The notes under the pieces are model-generated. The model was not told the origin of the DNA and did not search any database. It saw only the letters and a list, made by a program, of their open reading frames with translations. From a virus, in the IMG/VR virus record IMGVR_UViG_3300047558_000171, positions 1 to 56,108 of that record: 56,108 bases of DNA; one strand, 5' to 3'. Positions 45,616 through 55,890 of the stretch are shown here, one piece after another. The translations under genes were made by a program, and so were the position numbers. Numbering within the stretch: the stretch's first letter is position 1; each line of letters opens with the position of its first letter.

Positions 45616-45644
45616 TTGACTTTGTCAGTACTTCGTGTTAGTAT
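45616..45644 (+). promoter_or_regulatory. Promoter with TGTCAG box
   Basis: TTGACT (45616-45621), 17-base spacer starting TTGTCAG, TAGTAT (45639-45644). GCGTGTC lies just upstream of the -35. It drives the 45679 gene. Confidence 0.7.
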
Positions 45645-45678
45645 AACTATATAAAGAAAGAAAAAGAAAGGACATCAA

Positions 45679-45951
45679 ATGTCACTAGTAATCACAAAAG
45701 AAAACTTCGAATCAATTCGTATCAATGGAATTGGTGATGGATTCACTGTTCTAAACCCTGCTGATGGTTTCCGTAAAGATAACAGACTATGGTTTGGTAC
45801 TTGCTCTGTATGTGGTGAGTCAGTAACTAACTCTGCCATCACAGGTAGGGGTTGGGAACACGAGGTTATCCTAAAGCGTGAGGTACACCCTAGCGGTATG
45901 GTACACCAGCAAAGCAAGAAGGTAGTGTACTGCCCTATGGTAGAAGGGTAG
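45679..45951 (+). CDS. Cysteine-containing hypothetical protein
   Basis: The 90-residue protein has C-S-V-C-G near residue 42 (FGTCSVCGESVTNSAITGRG), then a histidine-containing segment (WEHEVILKREVHPSGMVHQ) and a final Y-C-P. This is a plausible zinc-ribbon arrangement with two cysteines at the front, one at the end and nearby histidines. AAAGGA precedes ATG 45679. The promoter at 45616 is its own. Function unknown. Confidence 0.7.
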   Translation: MSLVITKENFESIRINGIGDGFTVLNPADGFRKDNRLWFGTCSVCGESVTNSAITGRGWEHEVILKREVHPSGMVHQQSKKVVYCPMVEG

Positions 45952-45973
45952 TATATATCACCTCTATATATAC

Positions 45974-46001
45974 CCCCTATATAGACCCCCCTATATAGGG
46001 G
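45974..46001. terminator. Hairpin CCCCTATATAG/CTATATAGGGG
   Basis: A perfect 11-bp inverted repeat with a six-base loop (45974-45984 and 45991-46001), 22 bases after the stop of the 45679 gene. No T-run follows, so it may be an inefficient terminator or an mRNA-end protector. Confidence 0.5.
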
Positions 46002-46006
46002 CCTAC

Positions 46007-46036
46007 TTGACAAGGGGTACCATATATGGTCGCCCC
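46007..46036. repeat. Composite TTGACA-N15-GGTCGCCCC element
   Basis: TTGACA (46007-46012) is followed after 15 bases by GGTCGCCCC (46028-46036). The element also forms a hairpin, GGGG-t-ACCATATATGGT-cg-CCCC. There is no -10 box. The same spacing recurs at 46778, 47863 and 53059. Confidence 0.55.
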
Positions 46037-46053
46037 ACGCTGTCGGGCGTGTC

Positions 46054-46069
46054 GTTATAAGAACGTTAT
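46054..46069. repeat. GTTAT direct repeat, 11-bp spacing
   Basis: GTTAT at 46054 and 46065, preceded by GGGCGTGTCG, about 45 bases before the TTGACT promoter at 46101. Confidence 0.55.
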
Positions 46070-46100
46070 AAAAAATCTTTTAAAAATACGGCGTGTCGTC

Positions 46101-46129
46101 TTGACTTTTTGGGTTTTCTGTGCTAGTAT
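46101..46129 (+). promoter_or_regulatory. Promoter
   Basis: TTGACT (46101-46106), 17-base spacer, TAGTAT (46124-46129), with GGCGTGTCG directly upstream. Downstream up to 46220 there is no ordinary gene, only the short repeat element at 46160-46220. Confidence 0.65.
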
Positions 46130-46159
46130 TCTACTATAAACAATTAAATAAAGATAAAT

Positions 46160-46220
46160 AAGGTAATGAGCCTAAGCAAATAAATGTGACTAGTATCACA
46201 GTGAGCCTTAGCAAATAAAG
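46160..46220 (+). other. Leader element with two TGAGCCT-AGCAAATAAA repeats and possible 5-codon ORFs
   Basis: TGAGCCTaAGCAAATAAA (46167-46184) and TGAGCCTtAGCAAATAAA (46201-46218) flank a TGTGA-N6-TCACA palindrome. Each copy can be read as a five-codon frame, [M/V]SLSK-stop; the first has AAGGTA upstream. A related arrangement occurs at 48053-48090. It may be an attenuator, a small RNA or an operator. Confidence 0.45.
46185..46200. promoter_or_regulatory. CRP-like palindrome TGTGA-N6-TCACA
   Basis: TGTGACTAGTATCACA matches the half sites and spacing of CRP/GlxR-family binding sites, which exist in Actinobacteria. Binding by the host regulator is inference; the same palindrome could be an RNA hairpin. 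Confidence 0.45.
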
Positions 46221-46228
46221 CCCCTATT

Positions 46229-46250
46229 TGTCAGACCCCCCTGCTATACT
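46229..46250 (+). promoter_or_regulatory. Promoter with TGTCAGA box
   Basis: TGTCAGA begins at 46229 and TATACT lies at 46245-46250, exactly 16 bases after the start of the box. A TTGACA -35 is absent. It drives the 46290 gene. Confidence 0.6.
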
Positions 46251-46289
46251 AATGGCATAAAAGAAAGTATCTTAGAAAGGATAACTTAA

Positions 46290-46586
46290 ATGAAAAAATT
46301 TCGTACTATTGAACTAGGTTCTACTGTTGCTATCTACAATCGTGCAGGTAGTAAAAAAATCGAAGGTTCAGAACGCCCTAGCGGTGGTTTCTTAGCCCGT
46401 AAAATGTACTACACTAAGGCTAACGCTTTTGGTGTTGTAACTAAGATTCACGGGCACAATGCCCACGCTGTCCGTATCACTCTTGATAACGGAAAAGAAA
46501 TTGAAATGGGTTTAGATACTCACTACCACCTAAATGGTGAAATGGGTGAGTGTGTTGCTCACCAAGATACTTACTCACTTATCTAA
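46290..46586 (+). CDS. Hypothetical protein with beta-barrel pattern
   Basis: The 98-residue protein contains LGSTVAIYNRAGSKKIEG, then AFGVVTKIHGHNAHAVRITL followed by DNGKEIEMGLDTHY. The G-x-V-V/T-K strand, turn and V-R-I-T-L-D-N-G strand resemble small SH3-like barrels. It has AAAGGA upstream and is first in a two-gene unit with the 46605 gene. No function known. Confidence 0.7.
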   Translation: MKKFRTIELGSTVAIYNRAGSKKIEGSERPSGGFLARKMYYTKANAFGVVTKIHGHNAHAVRITLDNGKEIEMGLDTHYHLNGEMGECVAHQDTYSLI

Positions 46587-46604
46587 AGAATAGGAAATAT
46601 AAAT

Positions 46605-46781
46605 ATGTATAAAGTTAGATTAGAAAGTTTTAATGGTAATGTTTCAACAATTACACTTCCAAATAAGGAAAGTGTTAATGCGTTTATTGAACAGTACCCC
46701 TCTAAAATAAAAAACGGTACTTCGTTGCGTGTGTCATGTGATGCACTAGGAATTAGAGGAACACTTGTTGGAAAAGCTTGA
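46605..46781 (+). CDS. Hypothetical 58-residue protein
   Basis: A short gene (MYKVRLESFNGNVSTITLPN...) preceded by TAGGAAAT, 18 bases after the 46290 gene. The pattern, a beta hairpin, a helix (ESVNAFIEQYPSKIK) and two strands (SLRVSCDALGIRGTLVGK), looks like a small folded domain. The last codon lies over a TTGACA site at 46778. No family is recognised. Confidence 0.65.
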   Translation: MYKVRLESFNGNVSTITLPNKESVNAFIEQYPSKIKNGTSLRVSCDALGIRGTLVGKA

Positions 46782-46809
46782 CAACTGATCCAAAAAGTGG
46801 TCGCCCCCC
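46778..46809. repeat. Composite TTGACA-N15-GGTCGCCCC element
   Basis: TTGACA (46778-46783) and GGTCGCCCCCC (46799-46809), starts 21 bases apart, overlapping the stop of the preceding gene and followed by a GTTAT pair. Confidence 0.55.
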
Positions 46810-46825
46810 GTTATCAAACTGTTAT
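46810..46825. repeat. GTTAT direct repeat, 11-bp spacing
   Basis: GTTAT at 46810 and 46821, immediately after the GGTCGCCCCCC element; CGACACACCCC follows at 46834. Confidence 0.55.
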
Positions 46826-46855
46826 AAATAAATCTACGACACACCCCCTAAAAGC

Positions 46856-46885
46856 TTGCATAATGTCCTACCCCTATGCTAATGT
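46856..46885 (+). promoter_or_regulatory. Promoter (weak match)
   Basis: TTGCAT (46856-46861), then a TGTCCTA variant of the box, then TAATGT at 46880 or TATAAC at 46885. It precedes the 46913 membrane-protein gene. Confidence 0.5.
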
Positions 46886-46912
46886 ATAACTATACAAAGA
46901 AAAGGACAGAAA

Positions 46913-47119
46913 ATGACTAAGCGTAACACTCTAACCCTAAAAGTAGCAATCCTATCAGCCCTAGGCGTATCACTAACCTTCTTCCTAGGAAATACCGCAA
47001 TGACTACCCTTGACGCTTATGTCTCTGCCTTCAGCCAGATGGGTGCTTTTGTGCTAGGTATGTTTAGCCTTATTGGTGTAATCTCAACCCTAGTAATGTT
47101 CCTTGTTGACGAGGAATAA
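46913..47119 (+). CDS. Small membrane protein with two helices
   Basis: The 68-residue protein has two hydrophobic segments, residues 8-28 (LKVAILSALGVSLTFFLGNT) and 42-63 (GAFVLGMFSLIGVISTLVMF), a basic N-terminus and an acidic end (VDEE). This topology fits a phage inner-membrane protein such as a superinfection-exclusion factor or holin-like protein, but nothing selects among them. AAAGGA precedes the ATG. A new promoter box overlaps the stop codon region. Confidence 0.7.
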   Translation: MTKRNTLTLKVAILSALGVSLTFFLGNTAMTTLDAYVSAFSQMGAFVLGMFSLIGVISTLVMFLVDEE

Positions 47120-47141
47120 TGTCTGAGGGTAATGTTAGTAT
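47120..47141 (+). promoter_or_regulatory. Promoter with TGTCTGA box
   Basis: TGTCTGA starts at 47120 and TAGTAT lies at 47136-47141, 16 bases on. No proper -35 is present. It precedes the 47167 gene. Confidence 0.6.
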
Positions 47142-47166
47142 TTAGATAGATAGAAAAGGACAGAAA

Positions 47167-47358
47167 ATGAAAAAGGGACTTGCTTTCAACCCATACATCA
47201 ACCACAACTCTAGCCTAGAGGAAATCGAAACAGAGTTGGCAGATTTGCTTGACTATGCCGAAAAGGTATTGGATTGGGAAATCTCAGATTTTGAAGAAAA
47301 GCAACTAATGGCTCTAACTAAATTGGCAAAGGCAAAAGGCTCTACCCGTAAGTGGTAA
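47167..47358 (+). CDS. Small acidic helical protein
   Basis: A 63-residue protein with a long acidic helix (SLEEIETELADLLDYAEKVL) and a basic C-terminal helix (QLMALTKLAKAKGSTRKW). AAAGGACAG precedes the ATG. It has its own TGTCTGA-type promoter. The polarity, acidic then basic, is typical of small phage proteins that bind host factors, but this is speculation. No family recognised. Confidence 0.65.
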   Translation: MKKGLAFNPYINHNSSLEEIETELADLLDYAEKVLDWEISDFEEKQLMALTKLAKAKGSTRKW

Positions 47359-47359
47359 A

Positions 47360-47381
47360 TGTCTGACCCCTGTGCCATAAT
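47360..47381 (+). promoter_or_regulatory. Promoter with TGTCTGA box
   Basis: TGTCTGA starts at 47360 and CATAAT lies at 47376-47381. It drives the 47407-47846 gene pair. Confidence 0.65.
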
Positions 47382-47406
47382 AGAAACATAAAGAAAGGAA
47401 AACTAA

Positions 47407-47640
47407 ATGAGTAAGTTTGAAAATGTAGACAAAGACCTTCGTGTATGTGTTTACTGCTATAGCACCACCTATGCGTATGTGTGCCCTGCTTGTAATGAGT
47501 ATGACGGGCTAATGCCTGTAAATCAAGAGACTGAAGACTATCTAGGTGAAGACCTGTTAGAGATTGTTTCAGAAGAATGTTTCCGTTGTGGTGAAAATGT
47601 TATCCCTAGCCAGCACCCTATGATTGGTTGTGATTTGTAA
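47407..47640 (+). CDS. Zinc-ribbon protein
   Basis: The 77-residue protein has three C-x-x-C pairs: VCVYCYS, VCPACNE and CFRCGE, with an acidic linker between the second and third (NQETEDYLGEDLLEIVSEE). Two pairs make a rubredoxin-like zinc ribbon; the third may bind a second metal or dimerise. Zinc-ribbon phage proteins often regulate transcription. AAAGGA precedes the ATG. It overlaps the next gene by one base (TAATG). Confidence 0.7.
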   Translation: MSKFENVDKDLRVCVYCYSTTYAYVCPACNEYDGLMPVNQETEDYLGEDLLEIVSEECFRCGENVIPSQHPMIGCDL

Positions 47641-47846
47641 TGAAGTATGTTGTTCGTCGTTTTGTATTTGGTCTAATCCTTATTCCTGTTGTGGCTGTTG
47701 CCTATACTGCTTTTTATGCCCTGCTAGTTTTGGCTGGCGGTATTCCAACTTCAACCATTCAAGAAGTATTTGCTCTAGGGTTAGAGATTGGTCTAGCCGT
47801 TGCCCTGCTAATGCAGTTTCCTGGTCTAGTAAAAAAAGTTTTGTAA
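47640..47846 (+). CDS. Small membrane protein with two helices
   Basis: The 68-residue protein has hydrophobic segments at residues 8-33 (FGLILIPVVAVAYTAFYALL) and 41-60 (EVFALGLEIGLAVALLMQFP), a basic start (MKYVVRRF) and a basic end (KKVL). It is translationally coupled to the zinc-ribbon gene upstream. It resembles the 46913 product only in topology, not in sequence. Holin-like or exclusion roles are possible but unsupported. Confidence 0.7.
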   Translation: MKYVVRRFVFGLILIPVVAVAYTAFYALLVLAGGIPTSTIQEVFALGLEIGLAVALLMQFPGLVKKVL

Positions 47847-47862
47847 AACACGGCGTGTCAGC

Positions 47863-47895
47863 TTGACAAATGATCGGAAATGGGGTCGCCCCCCC
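47863..47895. repeat. Composite TTGACA-N15-GGTCGCCCC element
   Basis: TTGACA (47863-47868) and GGTCGCCCCCCC (47884-47895), starts 21 bases apart, preceded by GGCGTGTCAG. No -10 box. Confidence 0.55.
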
Positions 47896-47953
47896 ACATC
47901 TAGTAGCTCTTTTACGTTAAGAACCCTACATCTAGTTTTCTAGCTCTTTAAAG
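47896..47953. repeat. Direct repeats ACATCTAG...TAGCTCTTT
   Basis: ACATCTAGTAGCTCTTTTA and ACATCTAGTTTTCTAGCTCTTTA occur in tandem (47896-47914 and 47930-47952). They sit in a 290-base gene-free spacer and may be protein-binding sites. Confidence 0.5.
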
Positions 47954-47987
47954 TGTTTACCAAATGTTTACCAAAATGTTACCAAAA
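47954..47987. repeat. Three tandem TGTTTACCAAA repeats
   Basis: TGTTTACCAAA (47954), TGTTTACCAAAA (47965) and TGTTACCAAAA (47977) follow each other without gaps, one helical turn each, just before a TTGACA promoter. This layout is typical of activator or iteron sites. Confidence 0.65.
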
Positions 47988-47992
47988 TACCC

Positions 47993-48021
47993 TTGACAAA
48001 TGACTAATAGTATGCTTAGAT
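47993..48021 (+). promoter_or_regulatory. Promoter
   Basis: TTGACA (47993-47998), 17-base spacer, TTAGAT (48016-48021). It is followed by the hairpin leader at 48042-48117 and the 48136 gene. Confidence 0.6.
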
Positions 48022-48041
48022 AGAAGTATAGAAAGTAAATA

Positions 48042-48117
48042 GTGAAGTTATAGATGAGCCTGATAGGTGAGCCTCGTAAGAGCAAATAAACTAGAAGCGA
48101 ATAAGCCATAACTTCAC
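48042..48117 (+). promoter_or_regulatory. Leader with 10-bp closing stem
   Basis: GTGAAGTTAT (48042-48051) and ATAACTTCAC (48108-48117) form a perfect stem around 56 bases that include two TGAGCCT copies and AGCAAATAAA, the motif also seen at 46160-46220. A GAAAGGG ribosome-binding site follows, so the structure could control translation of the 48136 gene. Confidence 0.55.
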
Positions 48118-48135
48118 CTAACGAAAGGGCAACTA

Positions 48136-48252
48136 ATGCTAAAGGTAACTTACATTCTGAACGGACAGACCGTTGTTTCGGCTGTGAGCGTTCGTGACCT
48201 CTCCAAGTTTGAAAAGGAGCACACCATTCTAATGGTGGAATCTTTTGGCTAA
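48136..48252 (+). CDS. 38-residue hypothetical protein
   Basis: A very short gene (MLKVTYILNGQTVVSAVSVR...), with GAAAGGGC upstream and a structured leader. It looks like two strands and a helix (RDLSKFEKEHTILMVESFG). The strong promoter and leader argue that it is real. No family recognised. Confidence 0.55.
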   Translation: MLKVTYILNGQTVVSAVSVRDLSKFEKEHTILMVESFG

Positions 48253-48254
48253 AA

Positions 48255-48276
48255 AGTCAGAGGGTAAGTGTAAACT
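48255..48276 (+). promoter_or_regulatory. Promoter with AGTCAGA box
   Basis: AGTCAGA starts at 48255 and TAAACT lies at 48271-48276; TAAAAT overlaps it by one base. It drives the 48301-48733 gene set. Confidence 0.5.
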
Positions 48277-48300
48277 AAAATAAATAAGAAAGGTAAACTA

Positions 48301-48465
48301 ATGACCACAGACGAAAAACTAGCCCTATTGGAAACCTTTGTTCGTGAAGAAGGTGACGGTAATGCTATGGTGTATGCCCGTATGTATGGTATGCTTTCAG
48401 CCTATGTTCGCCACGAAGACCTAGACACTATGATTGACTACTATGAAAGAAAGTTGGCTAACTAA
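48301..48465 (+). CDS. 54-residue hypothetical protein
   Basis: A short helical protein (MTTDEKLALLETFVREEGDG...) with methionine- and tyrosine-rich middle (MVYARMYGMLSAYVRHEDL). AAAGG precedes ATG 48301. It overlaps the next gene by one base (TAATG), which supports translation of both. Function unknown. Confidence 0.65.
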   Translation: MTTDEKLALLETFVREEGDGNAMVYARMYGMLSAYVRHEDLDTMIDYYERKLAN

Positions 48466-48629
48466 TGAACCTAAAAGCCCTTGCTAATGAACTAACCATC
48501 CGAATGAACACCGTTGAGGCTATGGATGACGCTGGTTACACTATTGACCAGAATGACCTAGACCGTATTGCTGAACTAGGTTCAGTTATTGCTACTCTTG
48601 CCCCTGAGTTGCTAGACCCTCGTTTCTAA
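48465..48629 (+). CDS. 54-residue hypothetical protein
   Basis: A short acidic helical protein (MNLKALANELTIRMNTVEAM...), with the second half DLDRIAELGSVIATLAPELL. It is translationally coupled to the gene upstream. The opening NELTIRMNTVEAMDDAG could be a rudimentary helix-turn-helix, but this is weak. No family recognised. Confidence 0.65.
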   Translation: MNLKALANELTIRMNTVEAMDDAGYTIDQNDLDRIAELGSVIATLAPELLDPRF

Positions 48630-48643
48630 GAAAGGTAAAACCT

Positions 48644-48733
48644 ATGTGTAAGTGTGAAGACCGTCCTTGCTGTGGCTGTGACCAGGATGAGCGTAGCCCG
48701 TTTGACTATGACCCTTTGGAGTGGAACTACTAG
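48644..48733 (+). CDS. 29-residue cysteine-rich microprotein
   Basis: A tiny gene (MCKCEDRPCCGCDQDERSPF...) with AAAGGTA eight bases upstream. It has five cysteines in the first 12 residues, C-x-C and C-C-x-C, enough for one metal site, and an acidic aromatic end. Its position right after two coupled genes with a ribosome-binding site supports it, but so short a frame needs confirmation. Confidence 0.5.
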   Translation: MCKCEDRPCCGCDQDERSPFDYDPLEWNY

Positions 48734-48754
48734 CTGCGACACGCCCGAAGGCGT

Positions 48755-48764
48755 GGTCGCCCCC
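48755..48764. repeat. GGTCGCCCC element
   Basis: GGTCGCCCCC directly precedes a DnaA-box pair and follows GCGACACGCCC-GAAG-GCGTGG, an inverted repeat of the GCGTG motif. Confidence 0.5.
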
Positions 48765-48786
48765 TGTGGATAACTTTGTGCATAAC
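48765..48786. other. Pair of DnaA boxes
   Basis: TGTGGATAA (48765-48773) and TGTGCATAA (48778-48786), both complements of TTATNCACA, same orientation, 13 bases start to start. Confidence 0.5.
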
Positions 48787-48831
48787 TTTTTAAGAAAGAT
48801 CAAAAATTTCCCTAAATTACGGCGTGTCGTG

Positions 48832-48861
48832 TTGCAAAATGTCAGACCCCTGATGTATAAT
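48832..48861 (+). promoter_or_regulatory. Promoter with TGTCAGA box
   Basis: TTGCAA (48832-48837), TGTCAGA from 48840 and TATAAT (48856-48861); GGCGTGTCG lies just upstream. It drives the 48887-49332 genes. Confidence 0.7.
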
Positions 48862-48886
48862 AATGGTAACAAAGAAAGGACAACTA

Positions 48887-49087
48887 ATGTCAGCAAATGT
48901 CTATACAATCGAAGAAGCCCTAAAGGGAACTTACTACCGCTCAAACACTTTGCGTGGAACTATTGAATACGCAGAGAAGCGTGATGATGTTTGGTATGGC
49001 TCAGATGATGAGGCTTACCTTGTAACTATCCGCCCAGAGATTGGCTACGGATATAAATACCGAACAATCGCTGTTCGTATTCGATAG
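48887..49087 (+). CDS. Hypothetical 66-residue protein
   Basis: The start ATG 48887 (MSANVYTIEEALKGTYYRS...) has GAAAGGA eight bases upstream; an in-frame ATG 24 bases earlier lies at the transcription start and is rejected. The protein has a helix followed by strands (TLRGTIEYAEKRDDVWYGSD and EAYLVTIRPEIG) and ends strongly basic (YKYRTIAVRIR). No family recognised. Confidence 0.65.
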   Translation: MSANVYTIEEALKGTYYRSNTLRGTIEYAEKRDDVWYGSDDEAYLVTIRPEIGYGYKYRTIAVRIR

Positions 49088-49095
49088 GAGAAATC

Positions 49096-49191
49096 ATGTC
49101 AATGAAATGCAAAGAATGTAACCGCACGTTTGACCTATGGAATGAAGAAGAGGCTGGAGAATGGTTCTTCGGTCACGATTGTGAAGGATAA
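49096..49191 (+). CDS. 31-residue zinc-finger-like microprotein
   Basis: A tiny gene (MSMKCKECNRTFDLWNEEEA...) with TAGGAGA upstream. C-x-x-C, then F-x-L-W, and finally GHDC give a C2HC-type arrangement. The N-terminal half resembles the first strand of many zinc ribbons. It is eight bases after the previous gene and three before the next, as in an operon. Confidence 0.6.
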   Translation: MSMKCKECNRTFDLWNEEEAGEWFFGHDCEG

Positions 49192-49194
49192 CTA

Positions 49195-49332
49195 ATGAAA
49201 CTAAGAAAAGAAGCAGAATACTCAATGCAACTATTCATGTGTGACGCTTGCGACACTCTTGCAAGTGTTGAAACAACTCAAGGAATGACAATTATCGTGT
49301 CCCCTTGCAAATGTCAGAGCAACCCTGTATAA
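49195..49332 (+). CDS. 45-residue cysteine-containing protein
   Basis: A short gene (MKLRKEAEYSMQLFMCDACD...) with C-x-x-C near residue 16 and C-K-C near residue 38, a plausible zinc ribbon. Its last codons contain the TTGCAA and TGTCAGA boxes of the next promoter, so coding and control sequence overlap. It has no strong ribosome-binding site of its own and is probably translated through coupling. Confidence 0.6.
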   Translation: MKLRKEAEYSMQLFMCDACDTLASVETTQGMTIIVSPCKCQSNPV

Positions 49333-49333
49333 T
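49305..49333 (+). promoter_or_regulatory. Promoter with TGTCAGA box inside a coding end
   Basis: TTGCAA (49305-49310), 17-base spacer with TGTCAGA, TATAAT (49328-49333). It lies inside the last nine codons of the preceding gene and drives 49366-49655. Confidence 0.65.
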
Positions 49334-49365
49334 AATAACAACAAACAAACAAAGGATAGAAAATA

Positions 49366-49554
49366 ATGATGACACGCAAAGACTATGTTCAGACCGCAAA
49401 CATTCTAAATCAGTTCGTTGATGAGATTGACTTTTTGGTTCTTCAAGAAATCGCAGATGGTTTCGCAGAGATGTTTGAAAACGATAACCCAAACTTCAAC
49501 TACCAGAAGTTTATTGACGCAGTATTCGCTGAACTAACGGAGGGGGATGAATAA
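49366..49554 (+). CDS. Hypothetical helical protein
   Basis: A 62-residue acidic protein (MMTRKDYVQTANILNQFVDE...). The opening RKDYVQTANILNQF is a pattern often seen in small phage proteins (a D-Y-x-x-x-A-x-x-L helix), followed by ADGFAEMFENDNPNFNYQKF, which recurs in actinophage microproteins of unknown function. AAAGGA precedes the ATG and a TAATG junction links it to the next gene. Confidence 0.7.
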   Translation: MMTRKDYVQTANILNQFVDEIDFLVLQEIADGFAEMFENDNPNFNYQKFIDAVFAELTEGDE

Positions 49555-49655
49555 TGGAACTGGTTGTCATTCTTCTCATGGGCACTAATATCCTAGCAAT
49601 GGCCCAAATCAACAAGCTTAGAAAAGAACTAGAAAAAAACAAGCCACCATTCTAA
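49554..49655 (+). CDS. 33-residue membrane microprotein
   Basis: The short protein (MELVVILLMGTNILAMAQIN...) begins with a hydrophobic helix of about 18 residues and ends with a charged tail (KLRKELEKNKPPF). It shares a TAATG junction with the gene upstream, which supports translation. A single-pass membrane peptide is likely; the role is unknown. Confidence 0.55.
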   Translation: MELVVILLMGTNILAMAQINKLRKELEKNKPPF

Positions 49656-49683
49656 AATGGCTGATCCTGGGATGGCTCTGTAC

Positions 49684-49704
49684 TTATCCACAGAGTTATC
49701 CACA
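49684..49704. other. Pair of perfect DnaA boxes
   Basis: TTATCCACA occurs twice (49684-49692 and 49696-49704), same orientation, 12 bases apart, immediately before GGGCCGCCCC. Confidence 0.6.
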
Positions 49705-49714
49705 GGGCCGCCCC
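49705..49714. repeat. GGCCGCCCC element
   Basis: GGGCCGCCCC, a variant of the spacer element, directly after the DnaA-box pair. Confidence 0.45.
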
Positions 49715-49774
49715 TCCGTGATCCCTCTGTCAATTCGATTACGTAATTAAGATATTTCTCCAGTTTTCCCAAAA

Positions 49775-49802
49775 TGTCTGAGGGCTGTGATAGGCTATAG
49801 CC
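49775..49802 (+). promoter_or_regulatory. Promoter with TGTCTGA box, leaderless
   Basis: TGTCTGA starts at 49775, TAGGCT lies at 49791-49796 and six bases later comes ATG 49803. The gene has no ribosome-binding site, so the mRNA is probably leaderless. Confidence 0.55.
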
Positions 49803-49907
49803 ATGAACGTAGAAGAATTTAACGAGTTTTTTGCTGGCATGACCGCTGAGGAGATTCAGCAGTGGTATGATGAAAACATGTTCAATAAGGACTGGGACTG
49901 GACCTAG
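49803..49907 (+). CDS. 34-residue acidic microprotein
   Basis: The protein (MNVEEFNEFFAGMTAEEIQQ...) is acidic and tryptophan-rich at the end (WYDENMFNKDWDWT). The lack of a Shine-Dalgarno site and the six-base distance to the -10 box agree with the leaderless genes elsewhere in the window. It could bind a host protein; there is no family match. Confidence 0.5.
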   Translation: MNVEEFNEFFAGMTAEEIQQWYDENMFNKDWDWT

Positions 49908-49909
49908 AA

Positions 49910-49920
49910 GGGTCGCCCCC
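49910..49920. repeat. GGTCGCCCC element
   Basis: GGGTCGCCCCC, three bases after the stop of the 49803 gene. Confidence 0.5.
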
Positions 49921-49977: not shown

Positions 49978-49983
49978 AATCTT

Positions 49984-50875: not shown

Positions 50876-51595
50876 ATGGCACTAACAAGAAGCAAGGACA
50901 GAAAAGTTGCTAACGCTGTATCACCTAATGGTAAAACCCCTACTATCGCTAATACTTTTGGCTTACCTGCTGGTAAAAGTTATTCCTGCCCTGGTGCGAC
51001 GACTGTATGTGAGGGTGTATGCTATGCTGGCAAACTCGAAAAAGTCTACAAGGGAGTAAAGAATGTGTTGCTCAATAATTGGGAGCAACTAAAAGACGCT
51101 GATTATCTCACCATGTATAACCTACTTGATGAAATGATAGTTAGTTTCAATGCAGACTGTGAAAAGCGTAATGCAGAAAAACTATTCCGTATTCACTGGG
51201 ATGGTGACTTTTTTAATGAGACTTATGTATTAGCATGGAAGGATGTAATCCTAAAGCATGCTGATGTGCAATTTTGGGCTTATACCCGTTCAGAATTCGC
51301 TGTTGAACCGTTAACTGGTATTGCTAACCTATCACTTTATTTTAGCACTGATAGTGCAAACCGTTCACTAGGCATTCGTCTCAAGAAGAAGCATGATGTA
51401 AAGTTAGCATACCTTGCAACCAATTTTGCAGAAGGCAAGGCAGACTTCAAAGAAATTCAAGATAAGCCTGCAGCCATGTGCCCTGAAAACCGTAAGCAAA
51501 TTAAACTTATTAGCGAAAAGGGTAGTGCATGTGTTTCGTGTTCACTCTGTGTATTTAATAAGGCAGACATTCTGTTCAGTGCCACCAAAAAGTAA
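50876..51595 (+). CDS. GP88-family phage protein
   Basis: The 239-residue protein matches the actinophage 'gene product 88' family: NTFGLPAGKSYSCPGATTVC with GVCYAGKLE near the start, FRIHWDGDFFNETYVLAW in the middle, FWAYTRS, then AMCPENRK and CVSCSLCVF near the end. The cysteine-rich first and last segments suggest a metal or iron-sulfur site, and the W-D-G-D-F-F strand with FWAYTRS resembles a TIM-barrel-type layout as in radical enzymes, which is inference. The biological role is unknown. AAAGG precedes ATG 50876. It is followed after nine bases by a small zinc-finger gene. Confidence 0.75.
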   Translation: MALTRSKDRKVANAVSPNGKTPTIANTFGLPAGKSYSCPGATTVCEGVCYAGKLEKVYKGVKNVLLNNWEQLKDADYLTMYNLLDEMIVSFNADCEKRNAEKLFRIHWDGDFFNETYVLAWKDVILKHADVQFWAYTRSEFAVEPLTGIANLSLYFSTDSANRSLGIRLKKKHDVKLAYLATNFAEGKADFKEIQDKPAAMCPENRKQIKLISEKGSACVSCSLCVFNKADILFSATKK

Positions 51596-51604
51596 GGATA
51601 AACA

Positions 51605-51721
51605 ATGATACCAACATACAAGATCAAAGGTGAAGAGCACGATTTTTATCAGTGCAGGGAATGCGGTAAGGTGTGGAAAAGCTACTATAAAAAGATTGGC
51701 CACAAGAAGTGCCCTAAGTAG
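51605..51721 (+). CDS. 38-residue zinc-finger-like protein
   Basis: The short protein (MIPTYKIKGEEHDFYQCREC...) has C-x-x-C-G-K-x-W followed by G-H-K-K-C, close to a C2HC zinc finger, and many lysines and tyrosines. AAGGATAAACA precedes the ATG, nine bases after the GP88 gene, so both are probably one operon. It may bind nucleic acid. Confidence 0.65.
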   Translation: MIPTYKIKGEEHDFYQCRECGKVWKSYYKKIGHKKCPK

Positions 51722-51723
51722 GA

Positions 51724-51734
51724 GGGTCGCCCCC
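51724..51734. repeat. GGTCGCCCC element
   Basis: GGGTCGCCCCC, two bases after a stop codon and followed by CCAGCTAGCTTT. Confidence 0.5.
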
Positions 51735-51753
51735 ATCCAGCTAGCTTTGTCAA

Positions 51754-51769
51754 GTTACGATAGCGTTAT
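51754..51769. repeat. GTTAC/GTTAT direct repeat, 11-bp spacing
   Basis: GTTAC at 51754 and GTTAT at 51765, 35 bases before the TTGACA of the next promoter. Confidence 0.5.
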
Positions 51770-51799
51770 GAAGCTGTGACATTTTTCACCTATTTGGAC

Positions 51800-51828
51800 T
51801 TGACAATGTCGGAGGGGTATGCCATAAT
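51800..51828 (+). promoter_or_regulatory. Promoter with TGTCGGA box
   Basis: TTGACA (51800-51805), TGTCGGA from 51807, CATAAT (51823-51828). No gene follows before the next promoter at 51894, so the two may act in tandem. Confidence 0.65.
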
Positions 51829-51868
51829 AGATGTAGTTGGAAATCAACAGACAAAAAAGTAAATAGTT

Positions 51869-51884
51869 GTTATCAAAAAGTTAT
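51869..51884. repeat. GTTAT direct repeat, 11-bp spacing
   Basis: GTTATCAAAAA at 51869 and GTTATCAAATA at 51880, ten bases before a TTGACA promoter. Confidence 0.55.
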
Positions 51885-51893
51885 CAAATAGAC

Positions 51894-51923
51894 TTGACAA
51901 ATGTCTGTGGTATCCACTATAAT
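51894..51923 (+). promoter_or_regulatory. Promoter with TGTCTG box
   Basis: TTGACA (51894-51899), 18-base spacer beginning AATGTCTG, TATAAT (51918-51923). It leads into the structured leader at 51930-51984. Confidence 0.75.
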
Positions 51924-51929
51924 AAATAG

Positions 51930-51984
51930 GTAAGCAAATAACGGAGAAAAAACTCCCCAAACAAAATCCTAGTGAAAGACTAGG
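51930..51984 (+). promoter_or_regulatory. Structured leader of the 51998 gene
   Basis: TAAGCAAATAA (shared with the leaders at 46160 and 48053) is followed by GGAG/CTCC (51943-51946 and 51953-51956) and a perfect CCTAGT-GAAAG-ACTAGG hairpin (51968-51984). The ribosome-binding site GAAGGAAG follows directly. It could stabilise the mRNA or control translation. Confidence 0.55.
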
Positions 51985-51997
51985 TGAAGGAAGCAAA

Positions 51998-52150
51998 ATG
52001 GCAAACGCAACTCTAACTGTTGGCTCGCAGTTCACTACCGCTAAGAGCGGTGTAGTAGGCACTATTCAGGAAATCGTAGAGAACAAGTCTGGTTCTATGC
52101 GTGTCCGTCTTGATGTAAATGGTCAGCCACGCTGGACTACTGTCAAGTAA
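51998..52150 (+). CDS. 50-residue SH3-like beta protein
   Basis: A short gene (MANATLTVGSQFTTAKSGVV...) with GAAGGAAG upstream. Strands with the pattern V-G-S-x-F-T-T, G-V-V-G-T-I-Q-E-I-V, then R-V-R-L-D-V-N-G-x-x-R-W fit a small five-stranded barrel, such as an SH3-like or KOW-like domain. The double promoter and structured leader suggest high expression. A covarying hairpin lies 23 bases after the stop. Confidence 0.65.
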   Translation: MANATLTVGSQFTTAKSGVVGTIQEIVENKSGSMRVRLDVNGQPRWTTVK

Positions 52151-52172
52151 GGTAAGCCCCTAGGCTTCTTGC

Positions 52173-52195
52173 TGGGTATCAAGTAAAACTGCCCA
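52173..52195 (+). ncRNA. 3' UTR hairpin, family member 1
   Basis: TGGGTA / TGCCCA stem (52173-52178 and 52190-52195) with loop ending GTAAAAC. It belongs to a set of five hairpins in which stem bases vary together while the loop end is constant. Confidence 0.6.
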
Positions 52196-52200
52196 CCTAC

Positions 52201-52229
52201 TTGACTTCTTACCCCAAGTCTAGTAAAAT
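52201..52229 (+). promoter_or_regulatory. Promoter
   Basis: TTGACT (52201-52206), 17-base spacer, TAAAAT (52224-52229). It lies six bases after hairpin member 1 and drives the 52264 gene. Confidence 0.65.
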
Positions 52230-52263
52230 AGTAATACAACCCAAACGAAAGAAGGAAGAAATA

Positions 52264-52710
52264 ATGGCGAAATCGCTATCTGTCAAAATCCCAACCGCTT
52301 CGCTAATCGCAGAAGTTGAGGCACAAATCGCAAAGGTAGAGCAGGACATTGAGAACTACTCTGGACTTCGCAAGCAGTATGAACTTGATGTAAAGCAGTA
52401 TGAGAAGGAAGTTATCGCTCACGCTATCAAGGCACTATCTGACCCAAGCAACATTGGAACTGAGAATGGCTCACTTGTTCGTGTAACAGGTAACTACCGC
52501 TACAACGGCGTGTCTGTTGAGTTTGATACTGAGGCACTAGGTTTCCCAAAGAAGCCAGAAGAGCCAGCACGACCAAATGAGAAGTGCTACTATGGTCGTG
52601 ACTACACTACCAAGTTGGACTTGCTCAAGAAGAACCTAAAGGTTCTCAAGATGACTCAGCAGGAAGAAGTCAATGCTTCAACCTATAACTCCGTAATGGA
52701 ACTGCTATAA
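52264..52710 (+). CDS. Coiled-coil hypothetical protein
   Basis: The start ATG 52264 (MAKSLSVKIPTASLIAEVEA...) follows GAAGGAAG; an ATG 63 bases earlier lies inside the promoter and is rejected. The 148-residue protein begins with KIPTASLIAEVEAQIAKVEQ and a long coiled coil, has a central beta segment (SLVRVTGNYRYNGVSVEFDT) and ends with another helix (KLDLLKKNLKVLKMTQQEEV). It resembles small structural or scaffolding proteins but no family is recognised. It shares codon style with its neighbours and ends with RNA hairpin member 2. Confidence 0.75.
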   Translation: MAKSLSVKIPTASLIAEVEAQIAKVEQDIENYSGLRKQYELDVKQYEKEVIAHAIKALSDPSNIGTENGSLVRVTGNYRYNGVSVEFDTEALGFPKKPEEPARPNEKCYYGRDYTTKLDLLKKNLKVLKMTQQEEVNASTYNSVMELL

Positions 52711-52738
52711 CCCTTTCCGTTCATCTCGGAAAAACACC

Positions 52739-52762
52739 TGAGTAAGTGTTCTAAACTGCTCA
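52739..52762 (+). ncRNA. 3' UTR hairpin, family member 2
   Basis: TGAGTA / TGCTCA stem (52739-52744 and 52757-52762, one U-G pair) with loop ending CTAAAC. It lies 28 bases after a stop codon. Confidence 0.6.
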
Positions 52763-52794
52763 CTCTAATAATCCCAACAAACAAAGGAAATCAA

Positions 52795-52974
52795 ATGGCT
52801 CGTAAGAAGATTGTTATCGCAACCGAGAAGTGGAACACCAAGAATGGTGAAATCTACAAGGCAGTAGTTCGCACGGCAGATGGAAAGTTTATTGGTGCTA
52901 CCAACCAGACCAAGAACATTCCTGTAAAGCAGAAGCGGAAGTCCCCGTCAAGTTTCTTCCTTGTTGGGAAGTAA
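52795..52974 (+). CDS. Small basic hypothetical protein
   Basis: A 59-residue basic protein (MARKKIVIATEKWNTKNGEI...) made of two strand pairs, K-I-V-I-A-T and Y-K-A-V-V-R-T-A-D-G-K-F, then a lysine/serine-rich tail ending SFFLVGK. It could be a nucleic-acid-binding protein. AAAGGAA precedes ATG 52795. No promoter box lies between it and the 52264 gene, so both share a transcript. RNA hairpin member 3 follows the stop. Confidence 0.65.
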   Translation: MARKKIVIATEKWNTKNGEIYKAVVRTADGKFIGATNQTKNIPVKQKRKSPSSFFLVGK

Positions 52975-52985
52975 ATGGGAAGACC

Positions 52986-53008
52986 TGAGTATGTCGTAAA
53001 ACTACTCA
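52986..53008 (+). ncRNA. 3' UTR hairpin, family member 3
   Basis: Perfect TGAGTA / TACTCA stem (52986-52991 and 53003-53008) with loop ending GTAAAAC. Compared with member 2, a U-G pair is replaced by U-A. Confidence 0.65.
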
Positions 53009-53058
53009 CCACTCTACCGCAGATGTCAAAAAGATCTTTGGAAAAGATCGAACCAGGC

Positions 53059-53089
53059 TTGACATTTGCGGTTTTGGGGGGCCGCCCCC
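53059..53089. repeat. Composite TTGACA-N15-GGCCGCCCC element
   Basis: TTGACA (53059-53064) and GGCCGCCCCC (53080-53089), starts 21 bases apart, as at three other sites. No -10 box. Confidence 0.55.
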
Positions 53090-53145
53090 GTTTGTAACAA
53101 AATAATAAAACCTTTAAGAAAAGCTTACGAAACGCCTGGATTAAC

Positions 53146-53174
53146 TTGACAATGTCTGTGGGTATTGGTATACT
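53146..53174 (+). promoter_or_regulatory. Promoter with TGTCTG box
   Basis: TTGACA (53146-53151), 17-base spacer with TGTCTG, TATACT (53169-53174). It drives the 53199 gene. Confidence 0.75.
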
Positions 53175-53198
53175 TGAGACATAAAGAAAGGCTAACTA

Positions 53199-53489
53199 AT
53201 GATTGAGTTTGACAACACTAAGAATCCATACCTCATGTTCTTCGCAGACGAAGGCTCTTGGGGTGACGCAAGCAACATTGTGATTGTAGACGCAGGTGAG
53301 ATTGACGGTCACTTCACTGAGGTTCTTGATTCTATTAGTGACCACAAGCGACCAGACTTTATGCGTTGGTATGTTGAGAACCAGACTCACGACCAGAATG
53401 TTGGAGAGTATGAGAACTGCGTTATCTGTGAGCGTTGGGAGTTTGGAACGGAAGATGAGATTCAGGAAGCATTAGCAGACGAAGGGTAA
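53199..53489 (+). CDS. Hypothetical acidic protein
   Basis: The 96-residue acidic protein starts MIEFDNTKNPYLMFFADEGS and contains GDASNIVIVDAGEIDGHFTE, RPDFMRWYVENQTHDQNV and CVICERWEFGTEDEI. The W-G-D-A-x-x-I-V-I-V-D strand pattern recurs in small phage proteins. Two cysteines in C-V-I-C may bind a metal but no partner pair is present. AAAGG precedes the ATG. Function unknown. Confidence 0.7.
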   Translation: MIEFDNTKNPYLMFFADEGSWGDASNIVIVDAGEIDGHFTEVLDSISDHKRPDFMRWYVENQTHDQNVGEYENCVICERWEFGTEDEIQEALADEG

Positions 53490-53491
53490 AA

Positions 53492-53513
53492 TGTCTGACC
53501 CCCTTGCTATAAT
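53492..53513 (+). promoter_or_regulatory. Promoter with TGTCTGA box
   Basis: TGTCTGA starts at 53492 and TATAAT lies at 53508-53513. It drives 53541-54447. Confidence 0.7.
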
Positions 53514-53540
53514 AGACAAACAAACGAAAGAAGGAAAAGA

Positions 53541-54059
53541 ATGGGAACTAGAGGACTAACTAAGGTTATTGACGCAGATGGCGTACTCAAGGTTGCACAG
53601 TATGGTCAATGGGACCACTACCCTAGCGGACAGGGTCTAAATGTATTGTCAATCATTTCTAAGTATGGAATGCTTGGCCGTATCAAAGATAATCTTAGCA
53701 AGTGTGTTGCTGGTACTGTAGAGCAGATTGAGCGTATGGCCTATGAGGCAATGAACACCAATGCTGAACTAATCACATTGGAGCAGGGTAACATGCTTGA
53801 ACGTATGTATCCACAGCTGTCACGTAACACTTGCAGCGACATTCTTAACGTGATTGCTTATTCTATGGGTAATGAGATTGTTCTTCACTTGGATACCGAT
53901 TTTGAAAACGATGAACTATTCTGTGAAGGTGTGTTTACCGTAAACTTCCAGACTAATGAGTTTATTAGTAACTGTGGCGTAGAGGTGCGTTTCCCTCTTG
54001 ACAAACTACCTACCGAAGAGGTATACTTAAATGCGTTCAGACAGGAAGCGGTGGCATAA
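53541..54059 (+). CDS. Conserved phage protein, MGTRGLT / QWDHYPSGQG family
   Basis: The 172-residue protein opens MGTRGLTKVIDADGVLKVAQ with the following YGQWDHYPSGQGLNVL. This N-terminal strand set is widespread in phage and prophage proteins, with a G-x-R-G-L-T start, a K-x-A-Q-Y-G-Q-W-D strand and a Y-P-S-G-Q-G turn. I do not know its function. The rest is helical, then beta-rich (LFCEGVFTVNFQTNEFISNC). AAAGAAGG precedes the ATG, and TAATG joins it to the next gene. Confidence 0.75.
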   Translation: MGTRGLTKVIDADGVLKVAQYGQWDHYPSGQGLNVLSIISKYGMLGRIKDNLSKCVAGTVEQIERMAYEAMNTNAELITLEQGNMLERMYPQLSRNTCSDILNVIAYSMGNEIVLHLDTDFENDELFCEGVFTVNFQTNEFISNCGVEVRFPLDKLPTEEVYLNAFRQEAVA

Positions 54060-54250
54060 TGGAAAAGCAACACTACACAATCCTAACTGGTGAGTCATAC
54101 AGCGTTATGGCCACAAGCGAAGATGAAGCAATGGCAAAGTTCTTTGTTCTTCAGGGGTATGAAGATGAAGAGGACTACAAGGATTCAGGTTTTGATTTCT
54201 CTAACCCTGATGATGTATCATACAATGAAACACTAACGGAGATAATCTAA
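54059..54250 (+). CDS. Hypothetical acidic protein
   Basis: A 63-residue protein (MEKQHYTILTGESYSVMATS...), with a strand pair, an E-D-E-A-M-A-K-F helix and an acidic tail (YEDEEDYKDSGFDFSNPDDV). The pattern Y-x-V-x-A-x-S-E-D-E-A-x-x-K is typical of small phage proteins whose function is not known. It is coupled by TAATG junctions to genes on both sides. Confidence 0.65.
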   Translation: MEKQHYTILTGESYSVMATSEDEAMAKFFVLQGYEDEEDYKDSGFDFSNPDDVSYNETLTEII

Positions 54251-54447
54251 TGAGCAAGTATGAAACTGTAACTGTTAAGCTAGTTGGAAACGACGGTAAT
54301 GCATTCTCTATCATGGGAGCTGTATCTAAGGCCCTTCGAAAAGCTGGAGCCTCACAGGATGAGATTAGTGACTATATGATTGAATCTATGAGTGGAGACT
54401 ATGATAATCTTCTACGTACCGCAATGAAGTGGGTTAACGTAGAGTAA
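54250..54447 (+). CDS. Conserved small phage protein (VKLVGNDGNAF family)
   Basis: The 65-residue protein reads TVTVKLVGNDGNAFSIMGAV, then SKALRKAGASQDEISDYMIE and SMSGDYDNLLRTAMKWVNV. The order V-K-L-V-G-x-D-G-N-A-F, a helix with A-L-R-x-A-G, and S-G-D-Y-D-x-L-L is a widespread small phage protein of unknown function. It is the last gene of the three-gene operon, and its 3' region holds a 7-bp inverted repeat and RNA hairpin member 4. Confidence 0.75.
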   Translation: MSKYETVTVKLVGNDGNAFSIMGAVSKALRKAGASQDEISDYMIESMSGDYDNLLRTAMKWVNVE

Positions 54448-54454
54448 AAGGTAC

Positions 54455-54486
54455 TGCAGGCTTTTATCCTTTCTTTCGTGCCTGCA
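54455..54486 (+). terminator. Hairpin TGCAGGC/GCCTGCA
   Basis: A perfect 7-bp inverted repeat (54455-54461 and 54480-54486) with an 18-base pyrimidine-rich loop, just after the stop codon. No T-run follows, so it is a weak terminator or a 3'-end stabiliser. Confidence 0.5.
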
Positions 54487-54498
54487 TGCTAAGGGACC

Positions 54499-54523
54499 TG
54501 AGCACGTCCATGTAAACTGCTCA
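54499..54523 (+). ncRNA. 3' UTR hairpin, family member 4
   Basis: Perfect TGAGCA / TGCTCA stem (54499-54504 and 54518-54523), loop ending GTAAAC. Compared with member 3, a U-A pair is replaced by C-G. Confidence 0.65.
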
Positions 54524-54544
54524 TTCTCCATACCTGGACTTTTT

Positions 54545-54556
54545 GGGATCGCCCCC
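54545..54556. repeat. GGATCGCCCC element
   Basis: GGGATCGCCCCC, a variant of the spacer element, followed directly by a DnaA-box pair. Confidence 0.45.
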
Positions 54557-54586
54557 TGTGGATAACTCTGATCCAGCTGTGGATAA
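54557..54586. other. Pair of DnaA boxes
   Basis: TGTGGATAA at 54557-54565 and 54578-54586 (complement of TTATCCACA), same orientation, 21 bases or two helical turns apart. Confidence 0.55.
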
Positions 54587-54589
54587 CTT

Positions 54590-54606
54590 TTACGATAACC
54601 TTACGA
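54590..54606. repeat. TTACGA direct repeat, 11-bp spacing
   Basis: TTACGA at 54590 and 54601; the second runs into CGACACGCCC, the inverse of the GGCGTGTCG motif. Confidence 0.45.
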
Positions 54607-54633
54607 CACGCCCAAAAATTTTCCTAAAATAAC

Positions 54634-54662
54634 TTGACATTGTCAGTGGTCTATGCCATAAT
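54634..54662 (+). promoter_or_regulatory. Promoter with TGTCAG box
   Basis: TTGACA (54634-54639), TGTCAG from 54641, CATAAT (54657-54662). It drives the DUF932 gene. Confidence 0.75.
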
Positions 54663-54701
54663 AGTCTTATAAGAAATCCCTACAAAAGAAAGGAGCCACT
54701 C

Positions 54702-55715
54702 ATGGCTCACCTACTAGAATCAGACGCAAACGGAAACACCGCTTTCGCTTCATTGCGAGAGCCAGCATGGCATGGTCTTGGCACTGTGTTCAATGAAGAA
54801 GTAACTACTAGCGAGATGTTGTCTCTTGCTCACCTTGACAACTGGAATGTTCGTCTTGAGGACGTTGCAGTTCCAGAAGGTTTCAACTCAGACAAGACTT
54901 ACTCGTTCGTTACCCGTACTAACCCATTTGACAAGACCCAGAACGATGTTCTTGGCGTTGTTGGTGAGCGTTATAAGGTGTTGCAGAATGAAGACCTATT
55001 TAGTTTTGGTGACAACATTCTAGACGGTGGTGGACGTTGGGAAACTGCAGGTTCTATCAAGGGTGGACGTGTTGTATTTGGTTCGCTTGCTCTTGAGCGT
55101 GAGACTGTTCTAGACCCTAATGGCGTTGCAGACAAGGTAAACACCTATCTGCTAATCAACACCTCTCACGATGGTTCGATTGCGATTCAGGCAAGTATCA
55201 CACCTGTTCGTGTTGTATGTGCAAACACTCTAAACCTTGCTCTTGGTTCACGTGGACGTGGCCCTAAGCAGTCGTTCAAGATTCGTCACACTCAGACCGC
55301 AGAAGGTAAGATTGCAGTTGCACGTGAGACTCTTGGTCTTGCGAACAAGTACATGGACGAGTTCGACAAGATGGCACACGCAATGATTCAGACTGAAATC
55401 ACTGATAAGCAGTTCAATGACATCATTCTTGCCGCGTATCCTAAGCCTGAGACTGACGCTAAGGGTTCTGTCAAGAAGTGGGAAAACAAGGTAGATGTAA
55501 TCAACGACATTTACACTGGCACTTACAATGGCATGATTGCTGGCAACGCTTGGGGTGCTTTCAATGCACTAACTGAGCGTCTAGACTGGTATCGTTCTGC
55601 ACGTGGTGGCAACAACGAATCTATCTTGGCAAGTGCTAGTGGCTTTGACCCAATGATGAACGCTGAGAAGAACCGCTTGCTCAAGGTTGTGCAGAGCGTA
55701 TTGCAGACCGCATAA
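54702..55715 (+). CDS. DUF932 family protein (phage/plasmid-like)
   Basis: The 337-residue protein has the DUF932 pattern: LREPAWHGLGTVFNEEVTTS, then YSFVTRTNPFDKTQNDVLGV, VVGERYKVLQNEDLF, FGSLALERE and ITPVRVVCANTLNLALGS. The family is common in plasmids and phages and has no proven function. It is often found near recombination genes and highly expressed. It is the largest plus-strand gene in the window and has an AAAGGAG site before ATG 54702, the best ribosome-binding site of the right part. RNA hairpin member 5 follows the stop. Confidence 0.85.
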   Translation: MAHLLESDANGNTAFASLREPAWHGLGTVFNEEVTTSEMLSLAHLDNWNVRLEDVAVPEGFNSDKTYSFVTRTNPFDKTQNDVLGVVGERYKVLQNEDLFSFGDNILDGGGRWETAGSIKGGRVVFGSLALERETVLDPNGVADKVNTYLLINTSHDGSIAIQASITPVRVVCANTLNLALGSRGRGPKQSFKIRHTQTAEGKIAVARETLGLANKYMDEFDKMAHAMIQTEITDKQFNDIILAAYPKPETDAKGSVKKWENKVDVINDIYTGTYNGMIAGNAWGAFNALTERLDWYRSARGGNNESILASASGFDPMMNAEKNRLLKVVQSVLQTA

Positions 55716-55726
55716 CAAAACGTGCT

Positions 55727-55747
55727 AGGCAACACGTAAAACTGCCT
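55727..55747 (+). ncRNA. 3' UTR hairpin, family member 5
   Basis: Perfect AGGCA / TGCCT stem (55727-55731 and 55743-55747) with loop ending GTAAAAC, 11 bases after the DUF932 stop codon. The stem differs from other members at several positions on both sides. Confidence 0.65.
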
Positions 55748-55776
55748 CCCCTAGGGGCTTGACAAAAGCTCCGATC

Positions 55777-55786
55777 TGGGGCGACC
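55777..55786. repeat. GGTCGCCCC element, reversed
   Basis: GGGGCGACC is the reverse complement of GGTCGCCCC, 18 bases after a TTGACA site (55759-55764). It is the only inverted copy. Confidence 0.45.
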
Positions 55787-55861
55787 ATAGTTTATTAGTA
55801 TTGTCAATCACAAAAAAACAATTACGATAGATAAATATTTTTCCCAAATTACGATAGAAGC

Positions 55862-55890
55862 TTGACTTTGTCAGAGGTTTGATGTAAAAT
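55862..55890 (+). promoter_or_regulatory. Promoter with TGTCAGA box
   Basis: TTGACT (55862-55867), 17-base spacer with TGTCAGA, TAAAAT (55885-55890). It drives the partial gene at the right edge. Confidence 0.75.

Follow-up and report, generated by a model that had tools for sequence, protein, structure and literature searches.

A TGTC[A/T]G box at a fixed distance from the -10 hexamer mostly replaces the -35 element in one gene block of a family of large actinophages

The IMG/VR virus record IMGVR_UViG_3300047558_000171, a stretch of 56,108 bases that is referred to here as the window, raises the question of why many neighboring promoters should share a short box between the places of the -35 and -10 elements, and of what might read it. 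According to the list of open reading frames (ORFs), the left 45 kb of the window carries structural genes on the minus strand, and the region from 45.6 to 56.1 kb carries small ORFs on the plus strand. A first-pass annotation had described about 20 plus-strand promoters in this region that share a TGTC[AT]GA box, and had suggested that a phage regulator or a host factor contacts all of these units, considered to be early, at once. In the present analysis the promoters and transcription starts of the block are predicted from the sequence, and the family records used for comparison are metagenomic and linear.

Within the window, we found 17 promoters with the box, all on the plus strand between 45.3 and 56.1 kb; the shared box thus stood, with a count somewhat below the number first proposed. 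The hexamer TGTC[AT]G is exact in 14 of them, ten reading TGTC[AT]GA and four TGTC[AT]GT, and three carry variant boxes. The distance from the start of the box to the -10 hexamer is 16 bp in all 17 promoters. The nine positions that had been listed previously all proved to be box starts with a -10 hexamer exactly 16 bp downstream, although two of them depart from TGTC[AT]GA: the box at 54641 reads TGTCAGT and that at 51807 reads TGTCGGA. The pattern TGTC[AT]G-N10-[TC]ANNNT matches the plus strand of 45301-56108 at 15 places and the minus strand at none, as compared with 0.23 +/- 0.48 occurrences (maximum 3) in 1000 dinucleotide-preserving shuffles of the same segment, and the enrichment over background composition was thereby borne out; one of the 15 matches, at 48888, falls where a coding region begins and was left out of the promoter count. 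A motif search of upstream regions, of the kind that the annotation had suggested, gave the same answer: expectation-maximization (EM) blind to the box, applied to 25 upstream regions anchored at ribosome-binding sites, recovered aaTGTCaGa...GcTA.aaT with a log-likelihood of 164, against 75-85 for shuffled sequences.

The box extends well beyond the window. The portal protein of the window is 45% identical to that of Stanwilliamsviridae, a group of Streptomyces phages, and its DUF932-like protein is 57% identical to the homologue in that group; the closer relatives are hundreds of uncultured IMG/VR contigs, several of them 100-118 kb in length. A tree of DnaE recovers three fully supported monophyletic groups, namely freshwater clade 1, freshwater clade 2 and the Streptomyces phages, and leaves their branching order unsettled. 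From the relatives, the presence of WhiB and the literature, in which whiB genes are a marker of freshwater actinophages (PMC6802176, PMC10914622), we infer that the hosts of this phage family are freshwater actinobacteria.

Related IMG/VR contigs contain 1447 distinct sites with the consensus WWW-TGTC[A/t]G-W-SS (W, A or T; S, C or G) followed by an extended -10 element (TGnTATAAT); because orthologous copies are included, this is not a number of independent events. An A/T-rich triplet precedes the box across the family sites, and positions 8-9 of the box read CC in 617 and GG in 435 of the 1447. TGTC[AT]G is followed most often by ACC (389/1447) or TGG (358/1447). If the -10 hexamer is placed at -12 to -7, the box lies in a single orientation at about -31 to -20, and the gap between its 7-mer and the -10 hexamer is exactly 9 bp. 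Spacing is rigid throughout: in 160 related, overlapping loci, TGTC[AT]GA was accompanied on the gene strand by TANNNT at offset 16 in 474 cases, versus 0-99 at other offsets, and after the removal of duplicates, 443 of 1059 distinct TGTCAG sites had, at offset 16, a -10 match of at least 5/6, and no other offset gave more than 34. Mixture-model EM on sites anchored at the -10, applied to each of four groups of relatives in turn, returned WWW-TGTC-A/T-G-A/T-SS with a -10 each time, the TGn being most evident in the largest group. Overall, TGn is present in 59% of box promoters.

In these promoters, the box mostly replaces the -35 element. A -35 hexamer near TTGACA at a spacer of 16-18, as in ordinary sigma-A promoters, is not the rule, since the -35 match is 3/6 or less in 63% of box promoters; a match of at least 5/6 at that spacer occurs in 16% of block promoters whose box matches at 5/6 or better, versus 2% at random positions. 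Two kinds of promoter thus coexist, one with the box alone and one in which only 1-2 bp separate the box from a TTGACA on its upstream side. Of the 17 box promoters in the window, 6 carry a -35 that matches at 5/6 or better, and three further promoters of the block, with -10 hexamers at 46124, 49972 and 52224, have a good -35 without the box. The proposal that promoters lacking a -35 keep the box best was borne out in the window when the exact 7-mer is counted: 9 of 11 promoters with a weak -35 have it, as against 1 of 6 whose -35 matches at 5/6 or better (Fisher p = 0.035). In the family it amounted to no more than a weak trend.

In each genome examined, the boxes are confined largely to one block, where they precede nearly every gene. 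The relatives examined have genomes of ~107-117 kb, and their weight-matrix sites are concentrated at 12.9-24.3 kb in G005 (29 of 31 sites), at 100-109 kb in G001 and at 77-84 kb in G010, on the strand opposite to most of the genome. The corresponding block of small ORFs in the window, at 45600-56108 on the plus strand, is by the ORF list likewise read in the direction opposite to that of the structural genes to its left, and the boxes of the window are concentrated in it; its assignment also draws on the site concentration in the three relatives and on synteny with the terminal repeat of Streptomyces phage Samisti12. Promoters outside the block, both in these three relatives and in window positions 1-44500, read TATGnTATAATT without the box or a -35 and form a second promoter class. 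In Samisti12, the matching block, which includes a DUF932-like gene, is found at both genome ends and is therefore a terminal repeat, on the strand opposite to its neighbors. The terminal-repeat genes of SPO1 and T5 are early, and the block that matches the Samisti12 terminal repeat is by the same token probably early host-takeover DNA. The units that the first-pass annotation called early are thus probably so, to judge from synteny with this terminal-repeat block.

To see how widely the box occurs, a set of 2.9 million viral contigs was scanned. The pattern AATGTC[A/T]GNSSNNNNTGNTATAAT gave at least 120 and 14 stretches, as opposed to 1 for a control with the box reversed. Among the matches listed, 114 of 134 loci have at least three same-strand sites, and all 114 carry genes of the family; four loci in the same list lack family genes and have one or two sites each. 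Both freshwater clades bear the box. No box array was found in Wakanda, Annadreamy, Faust or Quaran19. Among the candidate promoters of the Streptomyces phages Samisti12 and Quaran19 (Stanwilliamsviridae), TGTC lies exactly at -16 in 6 of 33 (5 of them promoters of the Samisti12 block) and TTG is kept at -35; these promoters resemble those of the window in having a -10 with TGn and, in Samisti12, in the homologous position of the block, and they differ in that the box is a mere trace.

The rigid spacing and orientation of the box relative to the -10, together with the missing -35, lead us to read it, with a probability of about 0.65, as an activator box that is recognized jointly by a phage or host protein and the host sigma-A RNA polymerase. 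A DNA-binding protein would occupy the box while touching the host polymerase, probably at sigma-A region 4, and would supply the upstream contact otherwise given by the -35, which would allow the units of the block to be turned on all together; the minority of promoters that have both TTGACA and the box could fire without the factor. The reader might be of phage origin, in which case a WhiB-like protein, by itself or together with a partner, is the best candidate, or it might belong to the host and be exploited by the phages. The earlier suggestion that one factor contacts the box at all units draws support from well outside the window, in the rigid spacing and single orientation of the 1447 sites and their concentration in one block, and the factor could be of phage or of host origin; taken overall, the interpretation offered by the annotation is partly supported.

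The closest known parallel is the middle promoter of phage T4. The T4 MotA box, (a/t)(a/t)(a/t)TGCTTtA, lies 12 +/- 1 bp from the -10 and replaces the -35, and about half of these promoters have TGn (PMC2988021). The likeness to the present promoters consists in an A/T triplet and a TG-containing box at a fixed distance from a sigma -10, a replaced -35 and a frequent TGn (PMC2988021, PMC6755090). The differences are that the box of the family reads TGTC[A/T]G-W-SS and not TGCTTtA, that it lies 9 bp from the -10, 3 bp nearer than the MotA box, and that it sits beside the -35 and not over it, in phages of an actinobacterial host. Because the box is beside the -35, the two elements can coexist. 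No MotA- or AsiA-like gene was recognized among the conserved proteins scanned, from which a divergent one could escape; judged from this and from its sequence and spacing, the box promoter is not a MotA promoter.

We therefore looked among the phage proteins for candidates. Sigma-70 region 2 (PF04542) gave no hit in 20 family records, and a phage sigma factor was accordingly rejected as the reader; single-subunit RNA polymerase (PF00940) gave no hit either, and its control was likewise without a hit. By Pfam, no DNA-binding regulator is recognizable among the ten ORFs of the window block that were scanned (the annotation had stated that the window contains no repressor gene), and no repressor was seen among the proteins scanned, which are part of the family proteins. 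Of the first 20 family records, 16 encode a WhiB-family protein, among them every record that reaches 98 kb; the protein also occurs in further relatives and in Samisti12. It scores above the cut-off for PF02467, has four invariant cysteines and a GVWGG-type turn (G[VI]WGG) in the alignment, and finds its best sequence matches in WhiB proteins of solved structures. The best matches of its predicted fold (model with a predicted local distance difference test score, pLDDT, of 74, moderate confidence) are WhiB proteins, mostly in complexes with sigma-A region 4. A search of genome contigs with the phage WhiB returned a MutY-like false positive.

The only other recognizable transcription factor-like protein among the conserved proteins scanned is P0006, a helix-turn-helix protein of 50 amino acids; although 23 of 24 family records encode it, it was rejected as the reader since it resembles the N-termini of HNH nucleases and is also found in Samisti12. 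In near-complete relatives, P0006 adjoins a RuvC-like resolvase (e.g., L176:2853-3002). Subtraction of the Samisti12 proteins left small proteins that occur in every box-bearing genome; these are membrane, acidic or zinc ribbon-like, and none resembles a DNA-binding activator.

Streptomyces WhiB acts together with WhiA, whose site is GACAC (PMC4850268, PMC3781837). In the family, GACAC/GTGTC is enriched upstream of the box start, with 69 occurrences versus 3.1 per position at -25 and 48 versus 2.3 at -15, and is found at these preferred distances in about 11% of box sites, including several promoters of one genome. The window has GTGTC at 45608, 48824 and 49297, upstream of the boxes at 45623, 48840 and 49312, and GACAC at 46838 and 50803, upstream of those at 46864 and 50828. 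The box promoters thus resemble WhiA/WhiB promoters in that the phages encode WhiB and that the WhiA consensus (PMC3781837) stands upstream in a portion of sites, and they differ in that the box is TGTC[A/T]G after A/T and not GTGTC, and that most sites lack GACAC. The box itself was rejected as a WhiA site, because the required G before TGTC is replaced by A/T; the separate upstream GACAC/GTGTC does fit. These elements at fixed places upstream cast reasonable suspicion on WhiB, perhaps acting with host WhiA, and no more than that. WhiB, alone or with a partner, may be regarded as the leading phage candidate for the reader, with a host factor about as likely. More specifically, a phage WhiB-like protein that is bound to sigma-A region 4 could bring RNA polymerase to a box lying immediately downstream of where the -35 would be, an actinobacterial analogue of the way in which T4 appropriates sigma; this proposal appears to us doubtful.

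Several observations weigh against a phage-made activator, and against WhiB in particular. Should the block be the first to be expressed once the phage has entered, such an activator would not yet be there. The WhiB proteins of the two freshwater clades are 43% identical, yet the box is the same, and Samisti12 has WhiB, but its block promoters keep the TTG of the -35 with a mere trace of TGTC. WhiB7 touches DNA through its AT-hook on the upstream side of the -35 and not on the downstream side (PMC3905903); the location of the box is therefore not predicted by known WhiB geometry, and WhiB7-like geometry was rejected as direct support. 

Alternatively, the box may be read by a host transcription factor, or reflect a preference of the sigma-A RNA polymerase itself, which the phages would use for strong immediate-early promoters. 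We give this less than even odds; since it is a sub-case of the activator reading, its likelihood overlaps with the probability given above. The match to the Samisti12 terminal repeat, by which the block is probably the first to be expressed, agrees with it, as does the presence of the same box in two deeply separated freshwater clades, whereas the Streptomyces phages of the family are without it or show a trace, so that the box tracks habitat or host as well as phage ancestry. Other phages of the same hosts should benefit equally from such a factor, yet among the matches listed no array of at least three sites lies outside the family.

It is unlikely that the box is instead an operator at which a phage-encoded repressor turns the block off, similar to the operators and stoperators of mycobacteriophage L5. 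The box does sit inside the core promoter and, where it adjoins TTGACA, forms the inverted repeat TGACA-W-TGTCA, for example at 54641. L5 stoperators have a core that contains TGTCAAG, and they too are asymmetric, oriented and repeated sites in an actinophage. L5-type repressors bind such asymmetric sites as monomers and in one orientation (PMC9283540). L5 sites are scattered, however, and also occur between genes without promoters, whereas the boxes are concentrated in one block and tied to the -10 at offset 16 over 1447 sites, mostly without the -35 that a promoter would need in the absence of an activator. Together with a search for an integrase (PF00589) that found none in 18 relatives, this placement makes a lysogeny repressor unlikely, and L5-type stoperators do not fit; the annotation had itself regarded the L5 parallel as imperfect. 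That the block promoters are merely duplicates of one another with an inherited box, as many small units with similar leaders and some orthologous sites might suggest, is very improbable, because the box and the -10 stay fixed while the flanks and most of the intervening positions have diverged, and paralogous promoters within one genome have in common only the box, the A/T triplet, SS and the -10.

The individual promoters of the window, all on the plus strand and given from the box start to the end of the -10, are as follows. Those without a -35 lie at 46229-46250 (TGTCAGA with TGC TATACT), 47120-47141 (TGTCTGA, TAGTAT), 47360-47381 (TGTCTGA, TGC CATAAT), 48255-48276 (variant AGTCAGA, TAAACT), 49775-49796 (TGTCTGA, TGA TAGGCT), 50155-50176 (TGTCTGA, TATAAT), 50828-50849 (TGTCAGA, TAAAGT) and 53492-53513 (TGTCTGA, TGC TATAAT). 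The promoter at 50155 precedes ORF 50207-50524, which has a homologue in all box-bearing genomes compared, and that at 50828 precedes gene 50876-51595 (phrog_1392). Both 48840-48861 and 49312-49333 combine TGTCAGA and TATAAT with an upstream TTGCAA, and 46864-46885 has the variant TGTCCTA with TAATGT. The -35 is TTGACT at 45623-45644 (TGTCAGT, TAGTAT) and 55869-55890 (TGTCAGA, TAAAAT), and TTGACA at 51807-51828 (variant TGTCGGA, CATAAT), 51902-51923 (TGTCTGT, TATAAT, spacer 18), 53153-53174 (TGTCTGT, TATACT) and 54641-54662 (TGTCAGT, CATAAT), the last of which precedes the DUF932-like gene at 54702-55715 (phrog_1221).

A second short repeat, GG[TC]CGCCCC, lies between transcription units of the block at 46028, 46799, 47884, 48755, 49706, 49911, 50768, 51725 and 53080 (plus strand), with a variant copy at 54546 and an inverted copy at 55779. 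Several copies follow a TTGACA at the expected place of the -10. The repeat has 9 copies in the G010 block and is absent from G001, G005, G043, G044 and Samisti12; a stable RNA hairpin was not seen in it (z about 0). The relative G005 also encodes Cpn10-like and HSP20-like proteins (L177:4106-4393 and L177:472-891).

The occurrence of the box at a fixed place in more than 1000 promoters provides a concrete target for testing candidate readers, be it WhiB, a different phage protein or a host factor. If our reading is true, actinophages would possess a class of activator-box promoters comparable to the middle promoters of T4, and if the WhiB reading is true, one of the many whiB genes of freshwater actinophages would gain a DNA target. 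The box would also serve as a simple signature for locating the probable host-takeover block in the genomes of uncultured phages.

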